A stretch of DNA of 64,000 nt from Streptomyces sp. ADI96-02 (GTDB lineage: Bacteria > Actinomycetota > Actinomycetes > Streptomycetales > Streptomycetaceae), in NCBI RefSeq assembly GCF_003846185.1, contig NZ_ML123034.1, positions 2,141,092-2,205,091 on the forward strand, written 5' to 3'. Of the stretch, positions 22,151 through 36,108 are shown piece by piece (the stretch's first letter is position 1; every line of letters begins with the position of its first letter). A model generated the notes under the pieces. That model saw only the letters and a list, made by a program, of their open reading frames with translations. It was not told where the DNA came from and did not search any database. The position numbers and the translations under genes were made by a program.

Positions 22151-22194
22151 CCGGTGGGAGGCCGGTCCGCGGCCGGTGGGAGGCCGGTCTGCGG
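22151..22194 (+). repeat. Two tandem copies of a 22-bp repeat
   Basis: GGCCGGTGGGAGGCCGGTCCGC is followed at once by a copy with one change (CTGC for CCGC). It lies directly after the LAL stop, in the 225-bp spacer before the SARP gene, which also contains the palindrome GGGACCGGTCCC. Confidence 0.6.
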
Positions 22195-22373
22195 CGCACG
22201 GTCGGGACCGGTCCCGTCGGCGGGCCGGTCAACATGGGGGCGCGGGGCCGTTTCGGTCGGGTGCGGGCACGGAAAATGCGGGTGGGGCCCCGATGCGGCG
22301 GGGGCGCGGCGGTCGCAGGATCAGGACGTGCGTACGGCAGTCCGCCGCCCGTCCCCCTCCCGGAGGCCCGCCG

Positions 22374-24293
22374 ATGACCCGACCTCCCGCCCGTACCGGT
22401 GCCGCCGGTGCGGTGCACTTCTCCCTGCTCGGCCCGTTCAGGGCCCGGCTGGACGGCCGCGAGCTGCCGTTGGGCCCGCGCAAACAGCGCCTCGTCCTCG
22501 CCACGCTGCTCTGCCGCCCCAACACCCCTGTCCCGGTGGACGTGTTGACCGACGCGGTGTGGCCGGACGATCCGCCCCGCACGGCGCGCAAGAACCTCCA
22601 GGTGTACGTCAGCGCGGCCCGCACGCTTCTCGGCCCGGCCGGGGACGGCGGTCGCGACCGGGTGGTGCACGGCTGCGGGGGCTATCTGCTGCGCGTCGGC
22701 GAGGGCGAGTTGGACACGCTGCGCTTCGGCTCGCTGGCCCGCGCGGGGCGGGCGGCGGCCGAGCGGGGCGACCTGCCCGGGGCCGCGCGGCAGTTGCGGG
22801 AGGCGCTGGACCTGTGGGAGGGGCCGCCGATGAACGATCTGCGGGACTCCGCCGGGGTGGCCGGCGAGGCCGACCGGCTGGAGGCGCGCTGTCTGACCGT
22901 CTACGAGGACTGGGCGGAGACCGAGATCGAGTTGGGCCGGGCGGCCGTCGCGGTGGACGGGCTCGGGGAGTTGGTGGAGCGGCATCCGCTGCGCGAGCGG
23001 CTGCGGGTCGCGTGGATGAACTCCCTGCACCAGACGGGCCGGCAGGCCGAGGCACTGGCCGTGTTCGACGACTACCGGCAGCTGATGGCACGGGAGTTGG
23101 GCCTTGAGCCGAGCCCGGCGATGGCGGCGCTCTACCGCTCGATGCTCGGCCGCGGGCGGGAGGCCCGGCGGCCCGCCGCCGTCCGGGAGGCCGGGAGCCC
23201 GGTGGCGCTGCCCGCCGACGCCGGTCCTTTCACCGGCCGCCGCGACGAACTGCGCGACCTGCTGGACGTGTTGGACGGCCGGGGCGAACGGGTGGTGGTC
23301 CTCTCCGGTCCGGCCGGGGCCGGGAAGTCCGCGCTGGCCGTGCGGGCGGCGCACCTGCTCGCGGACGGCTTCCCGGACGGCCGCGTCCACGTACGGGTGC
23401 GGCGGGAGGACGGGACGGCGCGCGGCCCGGCGGAGGTGCTGGCCGAGCTGGGGCGGCTGTGCGGGGTGCGGGGCTTCGAGCAGGCGGGCGGCGGGGTGGA
23501 GGGGCCTGCGGGCCCGGGTCCGGCCGGGGCCCCGGCGGAGGGCGCGGCGGTCCTCGCGGACGCCTGGCAGCGGTGGCTGGCGCTCCACCGGGCGTTGGTC
23601 GTGCTGGACGACGTGCCGGACGAGGGTTCCGTGCGGGGGCTGCTGCCCCGGTCGGGGAACTGCTCGGTGGTGGTCACGGCCCGGGGGCAGCTCGCCGGGC
23701 TGGCTCCGGTGCACCGGATCGCGCTGTCCGCGCTGGCGGACGGGGAGGCCCTGGAGCTGCTGGGGAAGCTCATCGGGGCGGGCCGGCTGCGGACGGACCC
23801 GGGGGCGGCGCTGCGGATCGTGCGGGCCTGCGGGGCGCTGCCGCTCGCGGTGGGGGTGAGCGGGATGCGGCTGGCGGTGCTGCGGCATCTGCCGCTGGCC
23901 GAGTACGCCGCCCGGCTCGGCGATCCGTCGGCAGCCCTGGACGAGTTGGTCGCCGGAGACGTCTCCGTACGGGACCGGATCGCGTCCGGCTGGCGGGACC
24001 TGGCGGCCGGCGACCGGTGGGCGCTGGCGCGGCTGGCCCCTCTCGCGCAGGACGGCGGCTTCACCCTGGACCGGGCGGCGGCGGCGCTGGGCTGCGAGGA
24101 GCGGGCCGCGATCCGTGCCGTGGAGTCGCTGATCGACGCGGGCGCGGTGACCTCGCCCGCCGGGGAGGTCACCGCGCACGCCGCCCTGTACGAAGTGCCG
24201 CGCCTGCTCTGCCTGTACGCCGGTGAGCGGGACCGGGCGGAGGCTCGGGCGTCCCTGCTGTCCGAGCCGGCCGGGGCGCTCAGCCCAGGGTGA
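22374..24293 (+). CDS. SARP-type regulator with NB-ARC ATPase domain (AfsR-like)
   Basis: 639 residues. The OmpR-like winged-helix DNA-binding domain (about 12-105: FSLLGPFRARLDGRELPLGPRKQRLVLATLL) is followed by the bacterial transcriptional activation domain (about 110-260, with LREALDLWEGPPMNDL and LVERHPLRERLR). An NB-ARC module follows with P-loop SGPAGAGKSALA and Walker B VVLDDV. SARPs activate antibiotic or RiPP clusters by binding direct heptamer repeats spaced 11 bp; such a repeat is present at 28859-28879. GGAGG precedes the ATG. Its last 14 bp overlap the 3' end of the convergent LanKC gene. Confidence 0.92.
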   Translation: MTRPPARTGAAGAVHFSLLGPFRARLDGRELPLGPRKQRLVLATLLCRPNTPVPVDVLTDAVWPDDPPRTARKNLQVYVSAARTLLGPAGDGGRDRVVHGCGGYLLRVGEGELDTLRFGSLARAGRAAAERGDLPGAARQLREALDLWEGPPMNDLRDSAGVAGEADRLEARCLTVYEDWAETEIELGRAAVAVDGLGELVERHPLRERLRVAWMNSLHQTGRQAEALAVFDDYRQLMARELGLEPSPAMAALYRSMLGRGREARRPAAVREAGSPVALPADAGPFTGRRDELRDLLDVLDGRGERVVVLSGPAGAGKSALAVRAAHLLADGFPDGRVHVRVRREDGTARGPAEVLAELGRLCGVRGFEQAGGGVEGPAGPGPAGAPAEGAAVLADAWQRWLALHRALVVLDDVPDEGSVRGLLPRSGNCSVVVTARGQLAGLAPVHRIALSALADGEALELLGKLIGAGRLRTDPGAALRIVRACGALPLAVGVSGMRLAVLRHLPLAEYAARLGDPSAALDELVAGDVSVRDRIASGWRDLAAGDRWALARLAPLAQDGGFTLDRAAAALGCEERAAIRAVESLIDAGAVTSPAGEVTAHAALYEVPRLLCLYAGERDRAEARASLLSEPAGALSPG

Positions 24294-26862
24294 GCAGCGG
24301 CAGCAGGCCGTGCGGCCGGCCGCCCCCGGGGGCCGGGCCGTCGGCGGCCAAGACGTGCACGGCCAGCAGCAGCCCGGCCGCCCCGGTGGCCAGGTCGGCG
24401 GAGCAGCGCCGCAGCCGCGCGCCGGGCACCAGCAGCCGGTCCTCCCGGGCGATCAGATGCCAGGAGAGGTTGCGCACGGAGGCGAGGACGTCCGCTCCCA
24501 CCGGTCCCGGGCCCAGCTCCCGTGCGGCGGCGACGAGTCCGGCGCGTCCGGTGAACAACCCGGGTTCCCGGACGAATTCGCTGGTGCAGCCCTTGCGGAC
24601 GCCGGGCAGCAGGGCGGCCAGTTCGGGCGCTTCGCGCCGGGTCAGGTACTCCTGGGCGACGAGGGCGAAGCCGCTGCTGCCGTGGTAGACGTAGATGAGG
24701 TGGCGTTTGCCGTTCCTGACCTGGACGGTGCCGTCCGGCATGGCGACGCAGTGCGCGGCCTCCCGGCGCAGGGCCGCTCCCGCCGCGCGCAGCAGCCACT
24801 CCTCGCCGGTGAGCGCGTGCAGTTCGAGGTGGAGCAGGGCCGCACCGCTGAGCCCGCGCAGCAGTCCCGCCGAGGGCGGCGCGGCCGGTCCGCCGGCCAC
24901 CGGCTCGCCCCGGACCAGGCAGTCCAGGTCCCAGGCGGTGCGCAGGGCCGTGTCGAGGAGTTCCGGGTCCGGCGCGGTCCGCCCGGACGTGGCCAGCCGC
25001 AGGGCGGCGAGCGCCGTGCCCGCGCGGCCGGACATCAGGTCGGCGGAGGCGGACGGGGGCGCGGCGGCGGCCCGCGCGAAGAGTTCGCGGGCGTCGTCCG
25101 GGCGGCCGAGCCGGTCCAGCACGACCGCCGTGCCCGGCAGTCCGTCGAAGAGGCCGCCCGGCGCGGCCGGGTCCCGGCGGCGGGCCGCGTCGACGAGCCA
25201 GTCGGTCCAGGCGTCCGGGACCGGGGCGTGGACGCTGTGCAGGGCGTGGAGAACGCCCGCCGCGCCGTGGGCCAGGTCGGTGCCGCCGGTGGCGAAGGAC
25301 TTCGGGTCGCCGGGGAAGAGCCGGTCGCGGCGGTCGGGCGTCGCGCCCGCGTGGATGCCGGCCAGCAGGCGGGTGCGGAGTTCCGCCCAGTCGGGGGCGG
25401 GGCCGTCGAGGAGGGCGGCGATCTCCGCCTCCCGGTCGGTGCGGCCGGGGCCGCGCTCCAGGGCGGCCGGGCGGCGCGGGCCCGCGCCGGGCGCGAGGCC
25501 GTACCGTTCGCGGGCCCAGGCTTCCAGGGTGAGGGCCTTGGCCCGGTCGTGGCCGCCCATCTCGGTCAGCGGCATCAGCATGTTCAGCCAGGTCGCCCAC
25601 AGGGCGTAGGCGTCGGCCTCGGCGCCCGGAGTGCCGGGCGGGGCCTGGAGTCCGGGCGCGCCCGCGACGGGAGTGCGGGTGTCGTCGAGCGCGGTGGCGT
25701 ACTCGAAGTCGACCAGCGCGACGCGCCCGTCGGGGCGCAGGATGACGTTGGAGGGGTGCAGGTCTCCGAAGCGCAGCCCCCGGGCGTGCACGGCGTCCAG
25801 CGCGCGGGCGAGCTGCCCGGTCACGCTCTCCACCCAGGCGGTGTACGGGGCGAGTTCGGCCGGGGTGCCGGCTCCGCGCAGGAGGGCGAAGCGGGCGATG
25901 ATCTCGTCGAACAGGGTGGGGCCCTCGATGTACTCCGTCATCAGGAACCGGTGCTCCCACACGTTCCGCAGGCCGTACACCTCGGGTACGCAGTCGAGCC
26001 CGGCGAGCGCGGTCAGGGCCCGGTGTTCGCGGTGCAGCCGGGTCACCGCGTCGTCGCCGACGGCGTCGAGCCCGCAGTGCGGTCGGGCCTCGCGCAGCAC
26101 CACCCGCCGGCCGTTCCCCCGGTGCCGGGCGAGGTAGATGCCGCCGGCGTTGGAGAACTGGAGCGCTTCGTCGACGACGTACGGGAAGTCGTCGTCGCGG
26201 GCGGCGGCACGGGCGGCCAGGTGCGGGCGCAACTGCTCGGGCACCGGGACCCAGCCGGGCACCCGGAAGACCACGCCGCGCTCGTCGGGCACGAGTTCGC
26301 CGGAGGGGTGGCGCAGGGCGTGGACGCGCTCGCCCTCGGCGTCGAGGCACCAGCGTTCGACGAACGCCCCGTAGCGTACGTAGACGGGGGCGTCGCCGAT
26401 CCGCAGGTCGCTGAGGATGTACGGGCCGCGACGGCCGGTCAGCGCGCGGGTCAGGTCCTCCAGGACCCGGGTGAACGCCGTCTCGTCGCGCGGGTAGAGC
26501 GTGAGGAACTTGCCCGCGCCGCCGCGCGCCATGTACTTGTCGGACATCAGCAGCAGCGCCCGCTCGCTGCGCAGGAACTTGAACGGCACCCGGTGCTCCC
26601 GGCAGATCCAGGCGGTGTCCCGCAGGGTCTCCGCCGCCTCCTCCGGGACCGCGGAGACGTGGATCTTCCAGCCCTGTTCGGCCAGTTCGCCGTCCTCGGG
26701 CAGGTGGGAGGTCCACAGGCCGCCCGCGACGCGCCGCCATCCGGGGGGTGGCGGGGCCGCGTCGAGCGGGTAGCGGGAGTCCTCGTCCGGCAGCCGCGCC
26801 GGGGTGTCGTAGTACGTGCGGTCGGCGAGGCAGTAGAGCTGGGTCTCCTGAATGCCGGGCAT
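24280..26862 (-). CDS. lanKC: Class III lanthipeptide synthetase (LanKC)
   Basis: 860 residues in three parts: an N-terminal phospho-Ser/Thr lyase region (about 1-215, with FKFLRSERALLLMSDKYMARGGAGKFLTLYP split over the usual segments), a Ser/Thr-kinase-like domain (about 230-430) with catalytic loop FGDLHPSNV and DFE metal-binding triad, and a C-terminal LanC-like cyclase (about 500-860). The cyclase lacks the Cys-Cys-His zinc ligands (YVYHGSSGF occupies the CHG position), which separates class III from class IV. It would phosphorylate, eliminate and cyclise the peptide encoded at 28568-28723. Start ATG 26862 follows GAGGAGG. Confidence 0.93.
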   Translation of the reverse strand: MPGIQETQLYCLADRTYYDTPARLPDEDSRYPLDAAPPPPGWRRVAGGLWTSHLPEDGELAEQGWKIHVSAVPEEAAETLRDTAWICREHRVPFKFLRSERALLLMSDKYMARGGAGKFLTLYPRDETAFTRVLEDLTRALTGRRGPYILSDLRIGDAPVYVRYGAFVERWCLDAEGERVHALRHPSGELVPDERGVVFRVPGWVPVPEQLRPHLAARAAARDDDFPYVVDEALQFSNAGGIYLARHRGNGRRVVLREARPHCGLDAVGDDAVTRLHREHRALTALAGLDCVPEVYGLRNVWEHRFLMTEYIEGPTLFDEIIARFALLRGAGTPAELAPYTAWVESVTGQLARALDAVHARGLRFGDLHPSNVILRPDGRVALVDFEYATALDDTRTPVAGAPGLQAPPGTPGAEADAYALWATWLNMLMPLTEMGGHDRAKALTLEAWARERYGLAPGAGPRRPAALERGPGRTDREAEIAALLDGPAPDWAELRTRLLAGIHAGATPDRRDRLFPGDPKSFATGGTDLAHGAAGVLHALHSVHAPVPDAWTDWLVDAARRRDPAAPGGLFDGLPGTAVVLDRLGRPDDARELFARAAAAPPSASADLMSGRAGTALAALRLATSGRTAPDPELLDTALRTAWDLDCLVRGEPVAGGPAAPPSAGLLRGLSGAALLHLELHALTGEEWLLRAAGAALRREAAHCVAMPDGTVQVRNGKRHLIYVYHGSSGFALVAQEYLTRREAPELAALLPGVRKGCTSEFVREPGLFTGRAGLVAAARELGPGPVGADVLASVRNLSWHLIAREDRLLVPGARLRRCSADLATGAAGLLLAVHVLAADGPAPGGGRPHGLLPLLTLG

Positions 26863-26885
26863 GGCTGGCCTCCTCGGAGCGCGCC

Positions 26886-27052
26886 GGAACCGGCGGGCGT
26901 GGTGGGCGGGTCGGTTCGGGCCGGGTGCGGTTCGGCTCCGGTGGGTTCGGTTCTGGCCGGTTCGGCTCGGGTCGGGTCGGGTCGGCTCGGGTCGGTTCGC
27001 GCCGGTCCGGCTCGTTCGGCTCGTTCGGCTCGTTCGGCTCGTTCGGGCGGGG
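26886..27052. repeat. Degenerate 5-10-bp minisatellite between LanKC and exporter genes
   Basis: Most of the 207-bp spacer consists of GGTTCGG / GGTCGG-type units, ending in four consecutive CTCGTTCGG units near 27010-27048. No gene or clear promoter is visible; LanKC may be read through from the exporter gene or have a promoter hidden in the repeat. Confidence 0.65.
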
Positions 27053-27069
27053 TGGCCGGTGAGGGCGGC

Positions 27070-28371
27070 TCAGGTGGCGTTCGCGCGGCCGGGCGTCCCG
27101 GCGCTCTCGGGCCGGTCGCTTCGGGGCCGGTCGTCCTCCGAGGCGTCCGGCGGCTCCGCGTCGGCGTCCGGTCGTGCCCCGCCCCGGGCCGAAGGGGCGA
27201 GGGTGACCACGAGGGCGGAGACGCCCAGCACACCGGCCAGGACGCCGAAGGCGGGACCGCTGCCGAGGGCGGTCAGCAGGGCCCCGCCCGCCAAGGGGCC
27301 GAAGGGCTGGACGAGCGAGGAGAGGAAGCCCGCCGCGCTCTGGACCCGGCCGACCCGGTCGTCGGGCGTCACGACGAGCAGGGTGGACAGGAAGCCGATG
27401 CTGGCGATGGTGGCCAGGCAGGTGCACAGCGCGCAGAGCAGCCCGGCCACCAGCGGACTGCTGAACCAGGACAGCACGCCGGCGGTCAGCACGCAGGTCC
27501 AGCAGGTGGCGAGGATCAGGCCCCAGGTGTGGCGCTCGGGGTTCAGCCTCGGGGCCAGCAGCGCCCCGGCGAGCGACCCGGCGGACGTACAGGTGATGAC
27601 GAAGCCGCCGCCGAGGCCCGTCCGCCCGCTGTCGGAGAAGACGGTCAGCGCGGTGAAGGTAAGCGCGCCGAACGCGAAGTTCATGCCGAGGCCGAAGACG
27701 AGCAGCACGGTGCGCAGATAGGGCAGTCCCCAGAGGAAGGAGAGCCCGGCGGTCAGCTCCCGCTTGCTCAGCACCGGACCGGCCGCCTTGAGGGACCGGG
27801 ACCGGGTGCGGACGAGGGCGACGCAGAGGGTCGACAGGAGCAGCCCCACGACCTCGGCCAGGAACGGCAGGACGGGGTGCACCGTGAACAGCGCGCCGCC
27901 GATGAGCGGCCCGACCAGCCGGGCGGTGGCCGTCCGCGCCTGGAGCCGGGCGGTGGCCGTGCCCATCCGGTCCGGCGGCACCACCGCGCGCATCAGGCCG
28001 AAGGAGGCCGGACCGTACACGCTGTTGATCACCGCGGCGGCCGTCGCGGTGAGCAGGACGAGCGCGATCGGCGCGTGCCCGTTCCAGACGGCGAGGGCCA
28101 GGGCGCTCACCGCGATCAGGCTGCCGACGTCGCACAGCCGCATCAGCCGGCGGCGCTCGACCCGGTCCGCCATGACGCCCCCCGGCAGCATGGTGATCAG
28201 CACGGCGGCGACGGACACCGTTCCGACGGCTCCGGCCTGCATCGCCGAGCCGGTCGTCCGGAGCACGAGCAGCGGCAGGGCCAGGGCGGACATCTGGGTG
28301 CCCAGGACCGCGAAGAGGCCGCTCATCCAGAGCAGCCGGAAATCCCGGTTGGTGCGCAGCGGCGCGGCCAT
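27070..28371 (-). CDS. MFS transporter (EntS-like exporter)
   Basis: 433 residues with about 12 hydrophobic segments and the MFS loop-2/3 pattern PGGVMADRVERRRLM (about residues 64-78). The N-terminus FRLLWMSGLFAVLGTQMSALALPLLVL is typical of the drug/siderophore-export branch. It lies between the class III precursor and synthetase genes on the same strand, so export of the finished lanthipeptide or self-protection is the natural role. The C-terminal 40 residues are a polar Asp/Pro/Arg-rich tail. GGGAG precedes the ATG. Confidence 0.85.
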   Translation of the reverse strand: MAAPLRTNRDFRLLWMSGLFAVLGTQMSALALPLLVLRTTGSAMQAGAVGTVSVAAVLITMLPGGVMADRVERRRLMRLCDVGSLIAVSALALAVWNGHAPIALVLLTATAAAVINSVYGPASFGLMRAVVPPDRMGTATARLQARTATARLVGPLIGGALFTVHPVLPFLAEVVGLLLSTLCVALVRTRSRSLKAAGPVLSKRELTAGLSFLWGLPYLRTVLLVFGLGMNFAFGALTFTALTVFSDSGRTGLGGGFVITCTSAGSLAGALLAPRLNPERHTWGLILATCWTCVLTAGVLSWFSSPLVAGLLCALCTCLATIASIGFLSTLLVVTPDDRVGRVQSAAGFLSSLVQPFGPLAGGALLTALGSGPAFGVLAGVLGVSALVVTLAPSARGGARPDADAEPPDASEDDRPRSDRPESAGTPGRANAT

Positions 28372-28510
28372 CGACAGCTCCCGGAGGTCGTCGGGCGAGA
28401 GTCAGGGTCATGTGCCGCTGCGGGCAGCGGCGTCGTGCCTCGGAACCACGACGGGGGACGGCCCCTGTGCCACGGGGCCGCCCGGTCCGCCGGTCCGCCC
28501 GGCCGGCGCA

Positions 28511-28540
28511 GCGGGGGGAGGGAGACGTGTCTCCTCCCGC
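28511..28540 (-). terminator. Attenuator-like hairpin after the class III precursor gene
   Basis: GCGGGGGGAGGGAGAC and GTCTCCTCCCGC form a long stem with small bulges around a 2-nt centre, 28 nt downstream of the precursor stop on the minus strand. Placed between precursor and exporter/synthetase genes, it would let the precursor be made in excess, as is usual in lantibiotic operons. Confidence 0.55.
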
Positions 28541-28567
28541 CGCGGCGCCCTGGCCGGTGGAACCCGG

Positions 28568-28723
28568 TCAGCCCTCCAGGACGAGGCTGATCGTGCTGAC
28601 GCAGCTGCCGTCGATGTCGCGGTCGCGGACGGCGGTCGTCTCCTGGAGGTCCAGCACGGAGTGCGCCTCGACCTCGGGGGTCTCGTCGTTGTCGCCGGCG
28701 GCGGGCTTGGTGTTCTCGGACAT
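28568..28723 (-). CDS. lanA: Class III lanthipeptide precursor (LanA), 51 aa
   Basis: An acidic leader (MSENTKPAAGDNDETPEVEA) is followed by HSVLDLQ at residues 21-27; this hydrophobic-hydrophobic-D/E-L-Q motif is the recognition element of class III leaders. The C-terminal core region DGSCVSTISLVLEG holds one Cys (41), Ser40, Ser43, Thr44 and Ser46. Unusually, Cys precedes most Ser/Thr, so the standard Ser-x2-Ser-x3-Cys labionin pattern is absent. GGAGA lies 6 nt before the ATG. It heads the minus-strand operon with the MFS and LanKC genes and is divergent from the radical SAM operon. Confidence 0.85.
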   Translation of the reverse strand: MSENTKPAAGDNDETPEVEAHSVLDLQETTAVRDRDIDGSCVSTISLVLEG

Positions 28724-29058
28724 GGTGGTCTCCATCCACTCGTCACTGCGGGTCCCGGAGTCCGCGGAGTGTCACCGCGTTCCGCCGGAGCGGCCGGCCG
28801 GTCGTGCCTGCCGTTGCCGAGAAAGTTAGGAAGCCCGGCCTGGCGATCGCTTCGGCCCCGGTATGGCGTCGGTATCGCGCCAGTTGAGGCCGGTTCGAGG
28901 CTGCGGGGCCGACGGCCGGCGGGCCCCGCAGAGCCCCGTGCCGCCGCCCTGACCTGGGCCCATACCGGGGCCGAAGCGGCGGTGGACCGTCCGCGAACCG
29001 GCGCGCGGCAGCCTGGGTACGCGCCCGACGCGCCCCGGCCCCGAAGGAGGCGGCCCGC
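28724..29058. promoter_or_regulatory. Bidirectional RiPP promoter region with mirrored 19-bp element and 11-bp direct repeat
   Basis: CGCTTCGGCCCCGGTATGG (28848-28866) is repeated exactly in inverted orientation at 28960-28978, separated by 93 bp. Relative to the gene each copy faces, the element reads the same, 125 bp before the class III precursor and 81 bp before the radical SAM gene. Adjacent to the left copy, CGGTATG-GCGT-CGGTATC (28859-28876) is a heptamer direct repeat with 11-bp spacing, the form SARP regulators bind. No gene is seen in the spacer; the GC-rich stretch between the arms has no obvious role. Confidence 0.65.
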
Positions 29059-30216
29059 ATGGAACTCGCCGAACTCGTCGCGCGGCGGCCCTACCCGGCC
29101 GCCGGCCTGCTCATCGGCCTCACCCGCCGCTGCCCGCTGCGCTGCGCGCACTGCTCGACCGGGTCGGACCCGTCCACGCGGGAGGAGCCGGACGCGGACC
29201 GCCTGGTGCGCTTCGTGGGCACGTTCACCGAGGAGGACCGGCCCGACGTCGTGCTGCTGACCGGCGGGGAACCGCTGCTGCTGCCCGCGCTCGCCGAACG
29301 GCTGAGCGCGCTGGCGCGCCGCGCCGGTTCCCGCACCGCGCTGCTCAGCGGCATGTTCTTCGCCCGGTCCGGGAACCGTCGGGGCGGCCGGGCCGCGGTC
29401 GTCCCGCCCTCGATCCCGCCTCCGATTCCGCCCGCCGTCCTGCGCGCGATCCGGGGCGTCGACCACTTCTCGGCGAGCCTGGACGCGCACCACGAGCGCG
29501 AGGTCCCGCGCGCCGACGTGTTCCGCGCCCTGCACCGCATCCAGGAGGAGGGCGTGCCGGTGAGCCTGCACCTGACCGGGACCGGCGCGTCGGACCCCTA
29601 TCTCGCCGATGTCACCCGGGCCGTGGAGCGGGAGTTCGGCGGCCGGGTGCCGTGCCTGGTCAACGAGGTGCGGCCGTTCGGCCGGGCCGCCGCCTGGGCC
29701 CGGCCGGCCCGTACCGCCCCCGACGCCGGGGCCGTCTCGCCCTGCTCGATGGCCGCCTGGCCGGTGGTCGCCTTCGACGGGGCGGTCCTCGCGTGCTGCA
29801 ACCAGGACACCGTCGACCGGCGGCCCGTCCCGGCCCATCTGGACCTCGGCCACATCGGCGTGGACGACTGGGCGACCGTGCGCCGCCGCACGACGGAGTC
29901 GCCGGTGCTGCGCATGATCCGTACGGTCGGCCCGGCGCATCTGGCGGCCCGGTACGGCTCCGCGCCCCCGGCGGGCTCCTACTGCGACGGCTGCCGGGCG
30001 CTGGGCGGCGACGCGGCGGTGGCGGCCGGGGCGCGCGCGGTGGCGGCGGGGGCGGCCGGGGCGCTGCTGGACCTGACGGCCGCCGTGCGCGAGGCGCGGG
30101 ACGGCGCGCAGGGCATCGTCCGCCGCCACGGGTGCGCGGCGTACGCGCCGCTCGTCGGCGCGGGCGCGGCGCGGCCGGGCACCGGCGGCCGGACCGCACC
30201 CCGGGATGTCCGATGA
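29059..30216 (+). CDS. Radical SAM enzyme with SPASM-like C-terminal cysteines
   Basis: 385 residues. The [4Fe-4S] motif CPLRCAHC is at residues 25-32 (C25, C29, C32), followed by LLTGGEPLLLP, the SAM-binding GGE motif. Downstream cysteines in PCSMAAWPVVAF, AVLACCNQD and YCDGCRALGG suggest an auxiliary iron-sulfur cluster of SPASM/twitch type. Such enzymes install C-C or C-S links or other radical changes on RiPP precursors. It heads an ATGA-coupled operon with a heme-oxygenase-like protein and a 73-residue candidate substrate. An Arg/Pro-rich insert (about 114-128) and an Ala-rich helix near 320 are unusual. Confidence 0.88.
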   Translation: MELAELVARRPYPAAGLLIGLTRRCPLRCAHCSTGSDPSTREEPDADRLVRFVGTFTEEDRPDVVLLTGGEPLLLPALAERLSALARRAGSRTALLSGMFFARSGNRRGGRAAVVPPSIPPPIPPAVLRAIRGVDHFSASLDAHHEREVPRADVFRALHRIQEEGVPVSLHLTGTGASDPYLADVTRAVEREFGGRVPCLVNEVRPFGRAAAWARPARTAPDAGAVSPCSMAAWPVVAFDGAVLACCNQDTVDRRPVPAHLDLGHIGVDDWATVRRRTTESPVLRMIRTVGPAHLAARYGSAPPAGSYCDGCRALGGDAAVAAGARAVAAGAAGALLDLTAAVREARDGAQGIVRRHGCAAYAPLVGAGAARPGTGGRTAPRDVR

Positions 30217-30968
30217 ACTCCGCGGGACTCGGCCGGGAGGGCGGCGGTACGGGGGCGTCCGCCCGGTTGCGGGTCAAACTGCGGCTGCTGGAGCCGGAGT
30301 TCCGGGAGGCGACCAGCCATATGTGGCGCTCCGAAGGGTTGTTGCCGCGCTACCGGACGTATCTGTGCGTCATGCACACCATCGTGCGGGCCTCCGTTCC
30401 GCTGATGGAGCTGGCCCTCGAACGCGCCCGGCTCTCGGCGTCCTCGGGCGACCCGCTGGCCGCCCCGCTCGCCGCCTACCTGGAGGAGCACATCCGGGAG
30501 GAGGAGGGGCACGACGCCTGGCTGCTGGAGGACCTGCGGGCCGCGGGCGGCGATCCGCGCGACGCCCTGGACGCGATGCCGTCGCCCCTGATCGCCTCGC
30601 TCGTGGGGTCCCAGTACTACTGGATCGAGCACCACCACCCGGTGGCCCTCCTCGGGTACATCGCCGTGCTGGAGGGCTACGCGCCCGCCCCCGGCCTGAC
30701 CGACCGCATCGCCCGGCTGACCGGGCTGACCGCCGCCGCGCTGCGGACCGTACGGGAGCACGCGGTGCTCGATACCGGGCATCTGGACGCGCTGTACGCG
30801 CTGCTCGACGAGCTCGCGCCGGCCCGGGACCGGGAAGCGGCCGTGGCCGTCAGCGCACTGCACTCCCTCGACGCGCTCACCCGGCTGTTCGTCCGGCTCG
30901 GGCGCTCCGCACCGGCGCCGCCGCCGCGGGGGGCCGGACTCGTCCCACCGATGGGAGTCGCACCATGA
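30213..30968 (+). CDS. Heme-oxygenase-like iron-containing redox protein (HDO/PqqC-like fold)
   Basis: 251 residues, all-alpha. EEHIREEEGHDAWLLEDL (about residues 91-108) and YYWIEHHHPVALLGYIAVLEG (about 135-155) supply the Glu/His ligands expected of heme-oxygenase-like diiron oxidases or the related PqqC fold. These enzymes carry out oxygen-dependent oxidations such as C-C cleavage or N-oxygenation in natural-product pathways. Its ATG overlaps the stop of the radical SAM gene (ATGA), and its own stop overlaps the next ATG, so the three proteins are made together. The substrate is unknown; the 73-residue peptide is the obvious candidate. Confidence 0.78.
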   Translation: MNSAGLGREGGGTGASARLRVKLRLLEPEFREATSHMWRSEGLLPRYRTYLCVMHTIVRASVPLMELALERARLSASSGDPLAAPLAAYLEEHIREEEGHDAWLLEDLRAAGGDPRDALDAMPSPLIASLVGSQYYWIEHHHPVALLGYIAVLEGYAPAPGLTDRIARLTGLTAAALRTVREHAVLDTGHLDALYALLDELAPARDREAAVAVSALHSLDALTRLFVRLGRSAPAPPPRGAGLVPPMGVAP

Positions 30969-31186
30969 CCGGACCGCCAGAGAAGAACAGTCAACATCCG
31001 CCGCTGACCGATGAGTTGCGCGAGGCGGGTTTTCCCGTGGACCTGCTCACCGACGAGCAGCGCGAGGTGCTGAGCGCTCTGACCCCGGAGGAACTGGCCC
31101 TGCTGCTGGACGTCAAGAACCGGCTGGACGCCGTGGGGCCGGAGGTCCAGGCCCACGGCGAGATCGCCGGCGGCGCGCTGTTCTGA
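30965..31186 (+). CDS. Candidate RiPP precursor of the radical SAM operon, 73 aa
   Basis: The N-terminal two thirds are helical and acidic (LREAGFPVDLLTDEQREVL, ALTPEELALLLDVKNRLDAV), followed by a short tail VQAHGEIAGGALF. The layout suggests a leader that binds a peptide-modifying enzyme plus a small core ending in GGALF. From memory it resembles actinobacterial small proteins labelled aroma-sacti cluster domain, found next to radical SAM genes; that link needs a profile search. There is no Cys, so a sactipeptide bridge within this peptide is excluded. ATGA coupling to the upstream gene and a strong terminator 6 bp after its stop make it the last gene of the operon. Confidence 0.72.
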   Translation: MTGPPEKNSQHPPLTDELREAGFPVDLLTDEQREVLSALTPEELALLLDVKNRLDAVGPEVQAHGEIAGGALF

Positions 31187-31191
31187 CCGGT

Positions 31192-31233
31192 AGGGGGCCG
31201 GTCCCGGCGGATGCGGGCCGGGACCGGCCCCCT
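31192..31233 (+). terminator. Strong intrinsic hairpin ending the radical SAM operon
   Basis: AGGGGGCCGGTCCCGG (31192-31207) pairs perfectly with 31218-31233 around a 10-nt loop. It begins 6 bp after the stop of the 73-residue gene, separating this operon from the cyclase regulator gene at 31356. Confidence 0.8.
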
Positions 31234-34598: not shown

Positions 34599-35489
34599 AT
34601 GAGCGCCACGGAATCGGGAACGCGTACCGCGCCGGGGCAGGGCCTGACCTGGAGCCTGCGCGGGCGCGGCCCGCAGGACGTACCCGTGCTGGCGGACGCC
34701 GGGCCGCCCGGCGGGCGGCCCGCCGAGCCGGCCACGGGGCGGGGCGTCCGCGTCTGCGTGGTGGATTCGGGCGTGGAGCGGGACCATCCGCTGATCGGCC
34801 CGCTCGCCGGTTCGTGGGTGGTGGTCAAGGACGCGGAGAGCGGGCGGATCACGGTCGAGCCGACGACCACCGGGGACAGCTGCGGCCACGGCACCGCGTG
34901 CGCGGGCATCGTCCGCCGGACCGCCCCGGACTGCGAGATCCACAGCGTCCGGGTGCTCGGCGAGCGGTTCTCCGGCACCGGCGACATCCTGATGGCCGGG
35001 CTGCGCTGGGCGGTGGAGCAGCGTTTCGACGTGGTGAACCTGAGCCTGTCGACGACCCGCACCCGGTTCGCGCAGGAGCTGCACAACCTGGCCGACAGCG
35101 CCTACTTCGCCCGTACGGTGATCGTCGCCTCGGCCCACAACACCCCGGTGGAGAGCTTCCCGTGGCGGTTCGCCTCGGTGATCTCCGTCGGCAGCCACCA
35201 GGAGGACGACCCGGAGCTGCACCTGTACAACCCGCGGCCCCCGGTGGAGTTCTTCGGGCCGGGCCAGAACGTGAGCGTGCCGTGGCTGGGCGGCCGGACG
35301 ATCCGCACGACCGGGAACAGCTTCGCCACGCCGTACGTCGCCGGGCTGTGCGCCCGCGTCCTGTCCGCCCATCCGCGGATGACGGCCTTCCAGCTCAAGA
35401 ACGCCCTCTATCTGTCCGCGGCCAACGTGCGCCACGCGCCGCGCCCTTCCACAGCGGCAGGAGATTTCCGTGATGACCCAGAGAACTGA
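34599..35489 (+). CDS. Subtilisin-family (S8) serine protease without signal peptide
   Basis: 296 residues with an intact triad: Asp56 in VVDSGVE, His97 in SCGHGTACAG and Ser241 in TGNSFATPYVAG, plus oxyanion Asn181 in ASAHN. The N-terminus is polar with no signal peptide or pro-domain of normal size, so it should act in the cytoplasm. S8 proteases commonly remove leaders in RiPP pathways, and this one sits beside three candidate precursors. It is translationally close to the cyclase gene (3-nt gap) and overlaps the GAF gene by up to 20 nt. Confidence 0.85.
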   Translation: MSATESGTRTAPGQGLTWSLRGRGPQDVPVLADAGPPGGRPAEPATGRGVRVCVVDSGVERDHPLIGPLAGSWVVVKDAESGRITVEPTTTGDSCGHGTACAGIVRRTAPDCEIHSVRVLGERFSGTGDILMAGLRWAVEQRFDVVNLSLSTTRTRFAQELHNLADSAYFARTVIVASAHNTPVESFPWRFASVISVGSHQEDDPELHLYNPRPPVEFFGPGQNVSVPWLGGRTIRTTGNSFATPYVAGLCARVLSAHPRMTAFQLKNALYLSAANVRHAPRPSTAAGDFRDDPEN

Positions 35490-36108
35490 TTCCGCCTCCG
35501 CGCCCGCCCTCTCCCCCGCCGGTTCCGTCGCCTCCGACGCCGCCGACGCCCCGCGCAGCGAACTGCTCCAGTCGGTCGTGGACGTGGCGCGCGCCATCTT
35601 CGGGGCGGCGGCCAGTTCGGTCTTCCTGCTCGACGAGGAGGCGGACGAGCTGGTCTTCCAGGCGGTCTCCGGGCAGGGCGAGGAGTTCCTGGTGGGCCGC
35701 CGGTTCCCGGCCGGGCGGGGCATCGCCGGGTGGGTGGCGACCTCGGGCGAGCCGATGGTGGTGGACGACCTGACCGCCGACCCCTCCTTCGACCGCTCGC
35801 TGGCGGAGTCGACCGCGTACGTGCCGAACGCCCTGATGGCGGCCCCGCTGATCAGCGACGGGCGGGTCCTCGGCGTCCTGGAGGTGCTGGACCCCTCTCC
35901 GCAGGCGCGGTCGGACCTGCGCGAGCTGGACCTGCTCGCGATGTTCGCCCGGCAGGCCGCCGCCGCCCTGCGGGTGATCACCCCCGAGCGGTCGCCGGAA
36001 CCCGCGCCGGACGCGGTGTTCGCCGGCGGTGTGCTGGAGGGGGCGCGGCGCGAGGACGCGCTGCGGCTGCTCGGCAGCCTGGAGCGGCTGCTGCGGGGCG
36101 TCGGCTGA
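35470..36108 (+). CDS. GAF-domain protein
   Basis: 212 residues. A single GAF domain spans about 30-175, with SSVFLLDEEADELVFQAVSG, FPAGRGIAGWVATSGEPMVVDD and LMAAPLISDGRVLGVLEVLD. GAF domains bind small ligands such as cyclic nucleotides, which may matter because a nucleotide cyclase is encoded two genes upstream. No effector domain follows; the last 35 residues form a helix LEGARREDALRLLGSLERLL. AGGAG precedes both GTG 35470 and ATG 35473; the start overlaps the protease gene. Confidence 0.82.
   Translation: MMTQRTDSASAPALSPAGSVASDAADAPRSELLQSVVDVARAIFGAAASSVFLLDEEADELVFQAVSGQGEEFLVGRRFPAGRGIAGWVATSGEPMVVDDLTADPSFDRSLAESTAYVPNALMAAPLISDGRVLGVLEVLDPSPQARSDLRELDLLAMFARQAAAALRVITPERSPEPAPDAVFAGGVLEGARREDALRLLGSLERLLRGVG

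Follow-up and report, generated by a model that had tools for sequence, protein, structure and literature searches.

A cysteine-free aroma-sacti-family peptide encoded with an EpeE-like radical SAM enzyme and a heme-oxygenase-like oxidase in a conserved Streptomyces gene cassette

Several systems that produce or control ribosomally synthesized and post-translationally modified peptides (RiPPs) resemble in part the gene cassette analysed here. In the epipeptide system EpeX/EpeE (YydF/YydG), Cys223 of the radical S-adenosylmethionine (SAM) epimerase EpeE is the proposed hydrogen donor (PMC8326336). In thiovarsolin biosynthesis, the heme-oxygenase-like protein VarO has been tied to a RiPP by a deletion mutant and was suggested to be a dehydrogenase (PMC6511847), and the characterised heme-oxygenase-like dimetal oxidases (HDOs) act mainly on fatty acids or amino acids (PMC13108848). 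We analysed a window of 64,000 nucleotides from Streptomyces sp. ADI96-02 (contig NZ_ML123034.1, positions 2,141,092 to 2,205,091 of the forward strand), part of a 7.0-Mb genome in two contigs, in which a radical SAM enzyme, an HDO and a short peptide are encoded by consecutive genes. Already known are the precursor domain, which is named by NCBI, the close structural relative of the radical SAM enzyme and the precedent of a heme-oxygenase-like protein in RiPP biosynthesis. As far as the literature showed, the combination of the enzymes, the missing Cys residues and SPASM domain, the rule linking the peptide tail to the HDO and the regulator arrangement are new, and no account of a radical SAM-HDO-peptide cassette was found in the accessible literature on aroma-sacti, StsA, HDO/RiPP/radical SAM and lanthipeptide/SARP subjects. 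Our reading, to which we assign a probability of roughly 0.55 in its general form (precursor, radical SAM enzyme, HDO and protease), is that the cassette produces a RiPP whose aromatic C-terminal tail is altered by both enzymes.

An earlier note on this DNA had described the three genes as a tight unit in which a radical SAM/SPASM enzyme and a diiron-type oxidase would act on a Cys-free peptide, and the three genes and the Cys-free peptide are present as described. The peptide belongs to NCBIfam NF045560 (aroma-sacti cluster domain; 83.9 bits, cut-off 30), which answers the profile search that the note had proposed, and it did not fall into an unrelated small-protein family, the result that would have spoken against the note. 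This score and the preserved gene order place the cassette beyond chance. The leader domain is homologous to those of the StsA-related and aroma-sacti peptides (NF045559, NF045560). Compared with the StsA-related sactipeptides, however, the core of the window peptide contains no Cys, an HDO is present and a SPASM domain was not detected; the NF045559 score (32.1 bits) also lies below the cut-off of 75. Because there is no Cys among the 73 residues, a thioether within the peptide is excluded, as the note had concluded. We suggest that part of NCBI's aroma-sacti family does not consist of sactipeptides at all.

Very probably, the peptide is a precursor made up of a leader and a short conserved tail, GEIAGGALF; this tail contains a single aromatic residue and lacks Cys, Lys and Ser. 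Relatives were gathered by scanning genome contigs with one pattern, PEVQAH[GS]E, which gave 80 candidate stretches, 51 of them encoding a relative; with the window, these form a named set of 52 loci. AGGALF is present in 50 of the 52 peptides, a set gathered through a pattern that lies immediately upstream of AGGALF, and it is encoded by 18 DNA forms among the 50. Peptides of the genus set, which were found through the leader, carry the GGALF tail in 35 of 45 cases. The near-invariance of AGGALF is a soft argument, favouring a product that has a single fixed partner over a toxin that diversifies. Mean identity is 0.69 in the leader and 0.83 in the tail (34 unique leaders); this contrast is modest, and we therefore dropped it as a strong argument and rely on AGGALF alone.

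The terminal residue of the peptide follows the presence of the HDO. Among 295 genomes of the genus, NF045560 was matched at E <= 0.001 in 57 and above its cut-off in 52, whereas the HDO profile (E <= 1e-6) was found in 43, all of which also contain the peptide. The radical SAM enzyme (E <= 1e-40) was found in 42 genomes, every one of them among the 43 with the HDO; in the only HDO genome without a match, G028, the locus is truncated by the start of a contig. All 45 peptides in the HDO genomes end in Phe or Trp (GGALF in 35, GGVVW in three, GGVLF in two and five other endings once each). By contrast, none of the 18 over-cut-off peptides in the nine HDO-less genomes does so (they end in Leu, Cys, Asn or Glu), six sub-cut-off NF045560 matches (G039, G071, G133, G166, G198 and G226) having been dropped before counting. 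The rule was not built into the search, because the NF045560 match ends at residue 64, before the tail. The conserved tail is likely to be the site of modification, and the terminal aromatic that tracks the HDO is a concrete candidate for the position at which an HDO would act on the C-terminus of a peptide. We considered locus L075 of genome G176 as an exception to the rule and rejected it as such, since the HDO and radical SAM enzyme are present about 22 kb away.

Several points count against this part of the argument. The link is clade-structured: clades recur among the 43 genomes, which therefore do not represent as many separate events. Five genomes with sub-cut-off NF045560 matches only (G039, G071, G133, G166 and G226) stand outside the tail count; L082, the stretch representing G133, gave no peptide match. 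Furthermore, the nine HDO-less genomes also lack this radical SAM enzyme. The link therefore cannot separate the two enzymes, and the tail could follow the radical SAM enzyme alone.

The assignment of the radical SAM protein to the SPASM enzymes, which the note had made, was abandoned. Pfam detected PF04055 (Radical_SAM) and a sub-cut-off Fer4_12 match only, and PF13186 (SPASM) had no match at E <= 0.001 in the host genome. The seven-Cys motif of SPASM domains includes CX2CX5CX3C; this part is cut down to CX2C in the window enzyme, and its conserved additional Cys residues fit one auxiliary cluster and a free Cys. With neither PF13186 nor the expected Cys layout, a sactisynthase-type SPASM enzyme was rejected. 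In an alignment of 39 radical SAM sequences (two of 41 were left out as too short), CX3CX2C, C229, C246, C309 and C312 are kept in every row and C247 in 38, and the tandem GX4CC occurs in 38 of the 39 but is absent from the 11 SPASM proteins compared from the genus. In genome G012, a CxC (StsA-like) peptide has a PF13186 match at a distance of about 1.1 kb; thus, a true SPASM enzyme goes with a Cys-bearing peptide and not with that of the window.

In structure, the enzyme is closest to EpeE/YydG. Its AlphaFold model (mean predicted local distance difference test score, pLDDT, 86.3, from 21 own and related sequences) matches EpeE/YydG with a Z of 23.0 (root mean square deviation 3.5 over 295 residues), about 7 units ahead of the next family, SuiB (15.7), in VIA-align lists, in which the absence of a family does not exclude it. 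Foldseek likewise ranked EpeE first (E 3.7e-12), followed by DesII (5.9e-8), and the family profile placed YydG at the top of the PDB sequences (1.7e-8), before PqqE (1.6e-6). When YydG relatives encoded on Macrococcus and Lactococcus plasmids were compared by hhalign, the probability was 96.2% (E 2.6e-9) and five extra Cys residues were in register, C229, C246, C247, C309 and C312 being paired with C205, C221, C222, C288 and C291 of YydG. C222 of YydG would be Cys223 of EpeE, judging from the numbering. The enzyme thus shares with EpeE/YydG the fold, the radical SAM motif and the layout C-x15/16-CC...CxxC, with an auxiliary cluster and a tandem Cys at the position of the proposed hydrogen donor. 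The YydF precursors are also Cys-free in translation, although their sequences are otherwise different, and the plasmid loci contain a 'peptidase' and an ABC gene in place of the HDO, cyclase, S8 protease and GAF genes found here.

Other comparisons weigh against an EpeE-like function. The enzyme scored 28.1 bits against TIGR04078 (YydG; cut-off 300), and when the window sequence alone was used, the NCBIfam families Rv1681 (32.9 bits) and NirJ (30.9 bits) ranked above YydG, all far under their cut-offs; in phmmer against PDB, PqqE (6e-4) also ranked above YydG (0.029). In hhalign, Asp210 of EpeE, a residue known from the D210A titles of PDB entries only and placed through a one-residue offset in the Macrococcus homologues, aligns with Trp234 beside a gap at Ala233, and the acid is not kept. 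C247 is absent from one copy in L073. Finally, no PqqD-like recognition domain was detected by Pfam in the radical SAM enzyme or the HDO, no dedicated search for RiPP recognition elements having been made. Because the structural and Cys evidence stands against the single-sequence ranks and the lost acid, epimerisation is the leading reading rather than a demonstrated one and is proposed tentatively, at slightly under an even chance. Alternatively, the enzyme may crosslink the tail through a C-C or C-O bond or alter a Calpha position there in some other way, with the HDO finishing the product. This is a possible but less favoured course, for which the shared fold of SuiB, the sactisynthase structures 5why/5wgg, SkfB and PqqE (Z 14.2-15.7), the single-sequence ranks, the missing acid and the second radical SAM gene of six Trp-tail loci (described below) can be cited, while the Z lead of EpeE, the GX4CC tandem and a tail with one aromatic and no Cys, Lys or Ser speak for the epimerase. 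The two-step oxidative modification proposed in the note therefore stands in part: a single precursor, with its tail as the likely site, is linked to both a radical SAM enzyme and an HDO, but the closest structure to the radical SAM enzyme is that of an epimerase.

The description of the second enzyme as a heme-oxygenase-like protein of the diiron type agrees with our results, the dimetal site being predicted. PF14518 was matched with 41.6 bits (cut-off 28.9), and the model (pLDDT 88.5) matched 3dde (Z 23.1), CADD (21.0), UndA (19.6) and HrmI (19.6). TenA proteins and true heme oxygenases were matched at similar Z values (18-21); thus, the fold alone says little and the ligand set says more. 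Of 43 aligned rows, all have E97, H100, E154 and H183, and 42 have D187 and H190; these six residues are a probable ligand set of the 3H/3C type, in an assignment for which we take the UndA-like spacing and the 3H/3C rule of the HDO review as guides. CADD, UndA and HrmI share this type of ligand set as well as the fold, whereas AetD and MboA gave weak sequence matches only. All five 3H/3C HDOs that have been solved with substrate in the diferrous form have the substrate ligated to Fe1, and in UndA it is the fatty acid carboxylate that does so (PMC13108848). The substrate of the window HDO would instead be a peptide tail. In this respect it resembles VarO, a heme-oxygenase-like protein tailoring a ribosomal peptide (PMC6511847); VarO, however, is described as the partner of YcaO/TfuA proteins with an Arg side chain as its proposed site, a description that sets it apart.

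PQQ- and pearlin-type pathways rebuild a residue on a peptide scaffold, and in the synthesis of pyrroloquinoline quinone (PQQ) the radical SAM enzyme PqqE works alongside PqqC, a protein of the heme-oxygenase fold. The terminal aromatic of our peptide might similarly be rebuilt to yield a free small molecule or cofactor, with the leader discarded or reused. The near-invariance of AGGALF and the S8 protease encoded alongside fit such a route as well as the PQQ precedent does, but no cofactor-using dehydrogenase was detected by NCBIfam and Pfam among the six genes profiled, and conservation extends to the GG and to the aliphatic residues that precede the aromatic, which exceeds what a one-residue product would need. 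We consider this route rather unlikely.

The genes form a larger unit than the three proposed in the note. The two ATGA overlaps, at the radical SAM/HDO and HDO/peptide junctions, are borne out, and the same distance of -4 recurs in 38 of 50 and 43 of 52 cases, respectively, in the named set (with starts called by script). The order, however, runs on through the genes for a cyclase/ATPase protein, an S8 protease and a GAF-domain protein (Table 1). All six genes occur in 45 of the 52 loci, and in 44 of these in the same order and on the same strand; the remaining one, L106, has an over-long radical SAM call. The operon thus comprises at least six genes. As for the terminator that the note placed 6 bp after the peptide gene, a long G+C-rich hairpin does begin 6 nt after the stop codon (the 70 nt downstream of the stop fold at -62.1 kcal/mol), but it has no T run and does not mark a conserved end. 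Because the gap between the peptide and cyclase genes is <=32 nt in 10 of 50 loci, with an overlap at the shortest, the hairpin probably lies inside one operon, where it may serve as an attenuator or processing site; these gaps, together with the lack of conservation of the hairpin sequence, ruled out a three-gene operon ended by a terminator. Hairpins of differing sequence are also present between the two genes in many relatives linked to a class III lanthionine synthetase (LanKC), and they are weaker where the gap is short. The SARP regulator, cyclase/ATPase, S8 protease and lanthipeptide partners had been left out of the earlier inventory.

Table 1. Position of the cassette and of neighbouring features in the window
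Feature	Positions	Strand	Evidence
SARP (BTAD + NB-ARC) regulator	22176..24293 (exact start uncertain)	+	PF03704, 131.9 bits; linked in 45/52 loci
Class III lanthionine synthetase LanKC	24280..26862	-	NF038151, 883.5 bits (cut-off 575)
Probable MFS transporter, named by eye	27070..28371	-	Translation; relatives in loci
Putative class III lanthipeptide precursor, 55 aa	28568..28735	-	Weak SapB/AmfS match, 11.3 bits (cut-off 25); relatives in 34/52 loci
Sister operator before lanthipeptide operon, GATACCG/CATACCG/CGAAGCG, 11-bp spacing	28844..28876	-	
SARP-type operator before radical SAM operon, four 11-bp units CATACCG/CGAAGCG/TGGACCG/CGAACCG	28961..29004	+	
Radical SAM enzyme, EpeE/YydG-like, 385 aa	29059..30216	+	PF04055, conservation, AlphaFold model, PDB matches, hhalign against YydG
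HDO (heme-oxygenase-like dimetal oxidase), 251 aa	30213..30968	+	PF14518, model, PDB matches, kept residues
Precursor peptide, 73 aa, leader and tail GEIAGGALF, no Cys	30965..31186	+	NF045560, alignment
Long G+C hairpin without T run	31193..31232	+	Sequence, fold
Zinc ribbon, class III nucleotide cyclase, AAA/STAND ATPase and TPR protein, 1079 aa	31356..34595	+	PF00211, PF13191, PF13240, weak TPR
S8 subtilisin-like protease, candidate leader peptidase, 296 aa	34599..35489	+	PF00082, sub-cut-off NF049966
GAF-domain protein	35470..36108	+	PF01590; start overlaps protease gene

The products of the downstream genes retain their key residues. In the cyclase, D48, K88 and D92 are kept in 49 of 50 rows (the other has a gap), R171 in all 50 and N167 in 46. 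The protein resembles the TOMM kinase/cyclase fusion family TIGR03903, which likewise includes a cyclase/ATPase in a RiPP neighbourhood, but it has no kinase domain and scored 143 bits (residues 32-630), well below the cut-off of 705.75. The S8 protease keeps D56, H97, N181 and S241 in 47 of 47 rows; with no signal peptide evident by eye, it is probably cytoplasmic, and it scored 101.9 bits against the QhpE leader protease family NF049966 (cut-off 165).

SARPs activate antibiotic clusters, and their sites typically consist of heptamers with 4-bp spacers (PMC3367932). The window contains such direct repeats of heptamers, one 11-bp turn apart, between the radical SAM operon and a class III lanthipeptide operon (24280-28735) that diverges from it and has the same operator; several relatives show two matches to the lanthipeptide precursor. 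Two copies of CATACCGGGGCCGAAG stand head-to-head in this divergent interval, and CATACCNNNNCCGAAG occurs twice in the 7-Mb genome, both times at the divergent promoters, whereas the reversed control pattern does not occur. Allowing up to one mismatch, the copy on the lanthipeptide side is present in 26 of 31 loci, that on the radical SAM side in 28 and both in 25; this set omits L120, L129, L136 and L138, in which LanKC is elsewhere or in another orientation, and 17 loci without a LanKC match. ACCG pairs upstream of the radical SAM gene in 45 loci (omitting L106, L121, L128, L131 and L133, with doubtful radical SAM starts, and L102 and L117, without the gene) numbered 58, 45 and 35 at 11, 22 and 33 bp, whereas each of the remaining periods between 5 and 32 had 0-7; composition shuffles gave 0.36 at 11 bp, and radical SAM coding stretches gave no pair except one at 22 bp.

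The operator common to both promoters, together with LanKC matches in 35 of the 52 loci, could mean that the radical SAM enzyme and the HDO tailor the divergent class III lanthipeptide into a hybrid product, with the 73-aa peptide as an accessory or regulator. This is very unlikely: the cassette has no LanKC match in 17 of the 52 loci (in some of them through a contig end), on the basis of which we rejected lanthipeptide tailoring as its sole role, and it is the tail of the 73-aa peptide that tracks the HDO.

PimR, the model SARP-LAL regulator, consists of a SARP joined to a half that resembles guanylate cyclases and LAL regulators (PMC3367932, PMC5930380), and its SARP, cyclase-like/AAA part and heptamers with 4-bp spacers have counterparts in the window. 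PimR is one protein, however, whereas the SARP and the cyclase/ATPase are encoded here by two genes, and PimR is said to lack the N-terminal signature of guanylate cyclases, while the cyclase residues are kept here. Since PimR-type halves are separate genes in this locus, the likeness in domain layout suggests that the cyclase/ATPase protein may work with the SARP.

The chemistry, order of steps, cleavage and role that we infer from these observations would be as follows. In all likelihood, the SARP would bind the 11-bp-repeat operators and switch on the radical SAM operon and, in this clade, also the divergent lanthipeptide operon. The enzymes would bind the leader of the precursor. Near Ile67-Ala68 or Ala71-Leu72, among the aliphatic residues of the tail, the EpeE-like enzyme may then take away a Calpha hydrogen, and C247 may give a hydrogen back from the opposite face to yield a D-residue, steps that we hold jointly and with the same reserve as the epimerase assignment itself, other Calpha chemistry being the main alternative. 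The iron site of the HDO may bind the free carboxylate of the terminal Phe or Trp and oxidise this residue, for example by desaturation or oxidative decarboxylation, a proposal for which our confidence likewise falls a little short of even. The S8 protease would then probably remove the leader and free the product. In a doubtful last step, the cyclase/ATPase/TPR and GAF proteins, as a separately encoded PimR-type LAL half, would sense the product, which may thus feed back on the cluster.

The database name implies a sulfur-bridged peptide; the product of the cassette is more probably a conserved small molecule and possibly a signal. Alternatively, it could act as an antimicrobial peptide or another kind of effector, in which case the cyclase/ATPase and GAF proteins would be ordinary cluster regulators. 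Many bacteriocins vary between species, whereas this tail hardly does, and neither an immunity nor an ABC export gene was detected by NCBIfam and Pfam among the six genes profiled; on the other hand, SARPs switch on antibiotic clusters (PMC3367932), and the epipeptide, the product of EpeE, inhibits Gram-positive bacteria (PMC8326336). We regard such an antimicrobial or effector role as a serious possibility, although short of an even one. The full chain, namely a SARP-driven Streptomyces peptide signal that acquires D-residues from the radical SAM enzyme in a Cys-free tail and then an HDO-oxidised C-terminal Phe or Trp, is sensed by the cyclase/ATPase/TPR protein acting with the SARP and has its level tied to the lanthipeptide operon, is improbable when taken as a whole. 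If true, modifying enzymes swapped around a constant peptide-cyclase-protease-GAF core would represent a modular family of modified peptide signals; in any case, this constant core with its changing modifying enzymes is a starting point for studying what may be a modified-peptide signal that is coupled to regulators of the antibiotic type.

Within the named set, the HDO and the peptide are present in all 52 loci, the radical SAM enzyme in 49, the cyclase in 50, the S8 protease in 49, the GAF protein in 46, the SARP in 45 and LanKC in 35. The radical SAM gene is missing from L102, L117 and L121, each a short locus, and the SARP from L089, L102, L109, L117, L120, L121 and L139, of which only L120 is full-length. 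The relatives are nearly all from Streptomyces, including strains of S. griseus, S. globisporus and S. albidoflavus; the closest peptide is that of S. globisporus 1912-4Crt (86%), in a listing that may omit the window's own genome. Among 396 genomes drawn from the phylum, NF045560 was found in six, four of them over the cut-off, of which three are the host genome and two others of the genus. A tblastn search of plasmids with the peptide gave no match. A few loci depart from the arrangement on which our reading is based: the S8 and GAF matches of L074 and L081 lie on the far side of the radical SAM genes, no S8 protease was found in locus L073, the HDO of L081 (7662-9968, minus strand) has P and R at the D187 and H190 positions and is misaligned or degenerate, and the layout of G176 (L075 with L140) varies in that the peptide is about 22 kb away from the HDO.

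The G176 peptide, which ends in GGLLF and lies about 22 kb from the radical SAM, HDO and cyclase genes, adjoins a prokumamolisin-type protease and a P450. One in-frame TGA was found inside the HDO match in G269 and in G261, and the radical SAM enzyme of G161 was matched in two pieces, which may be reading errors or decay. All six fetched Trp-tail loci (L039, L054, L071, L073, L074 and L081) have a second, more distant radical SAM gene beside the first. Its products scored 176-987 bits against that of L039 (L039 itself being the highest); a match of 192 bits was also found in G176, whose peptide ends in Phe, while the remaining fetched loci, of which L049 and L056 are short contigs, gave no match as high as these.

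Outside the HDO-containing cassettes, other peptides occur, in part beside the shared core. In five genomes (L076-L080), a StsA-like CxC peptide and a peptide ending in WAHDLKLL stand beside the cyclase-S8-GAF genes, without this radical SAM enzyme or HDO. Paired divergent peptides ending in NVVC or NVLC and in EGQDLKLL are encoded in L067, L069, L070 and L072. In the HDO-less L067, a radical SAM protein of about 500 aa adjoins the paired peptides, with the cyclase, S8 protease and GAF genes in place, and both L067 and L072 contain a gene with sub-cut-off ATP-grasp matches.

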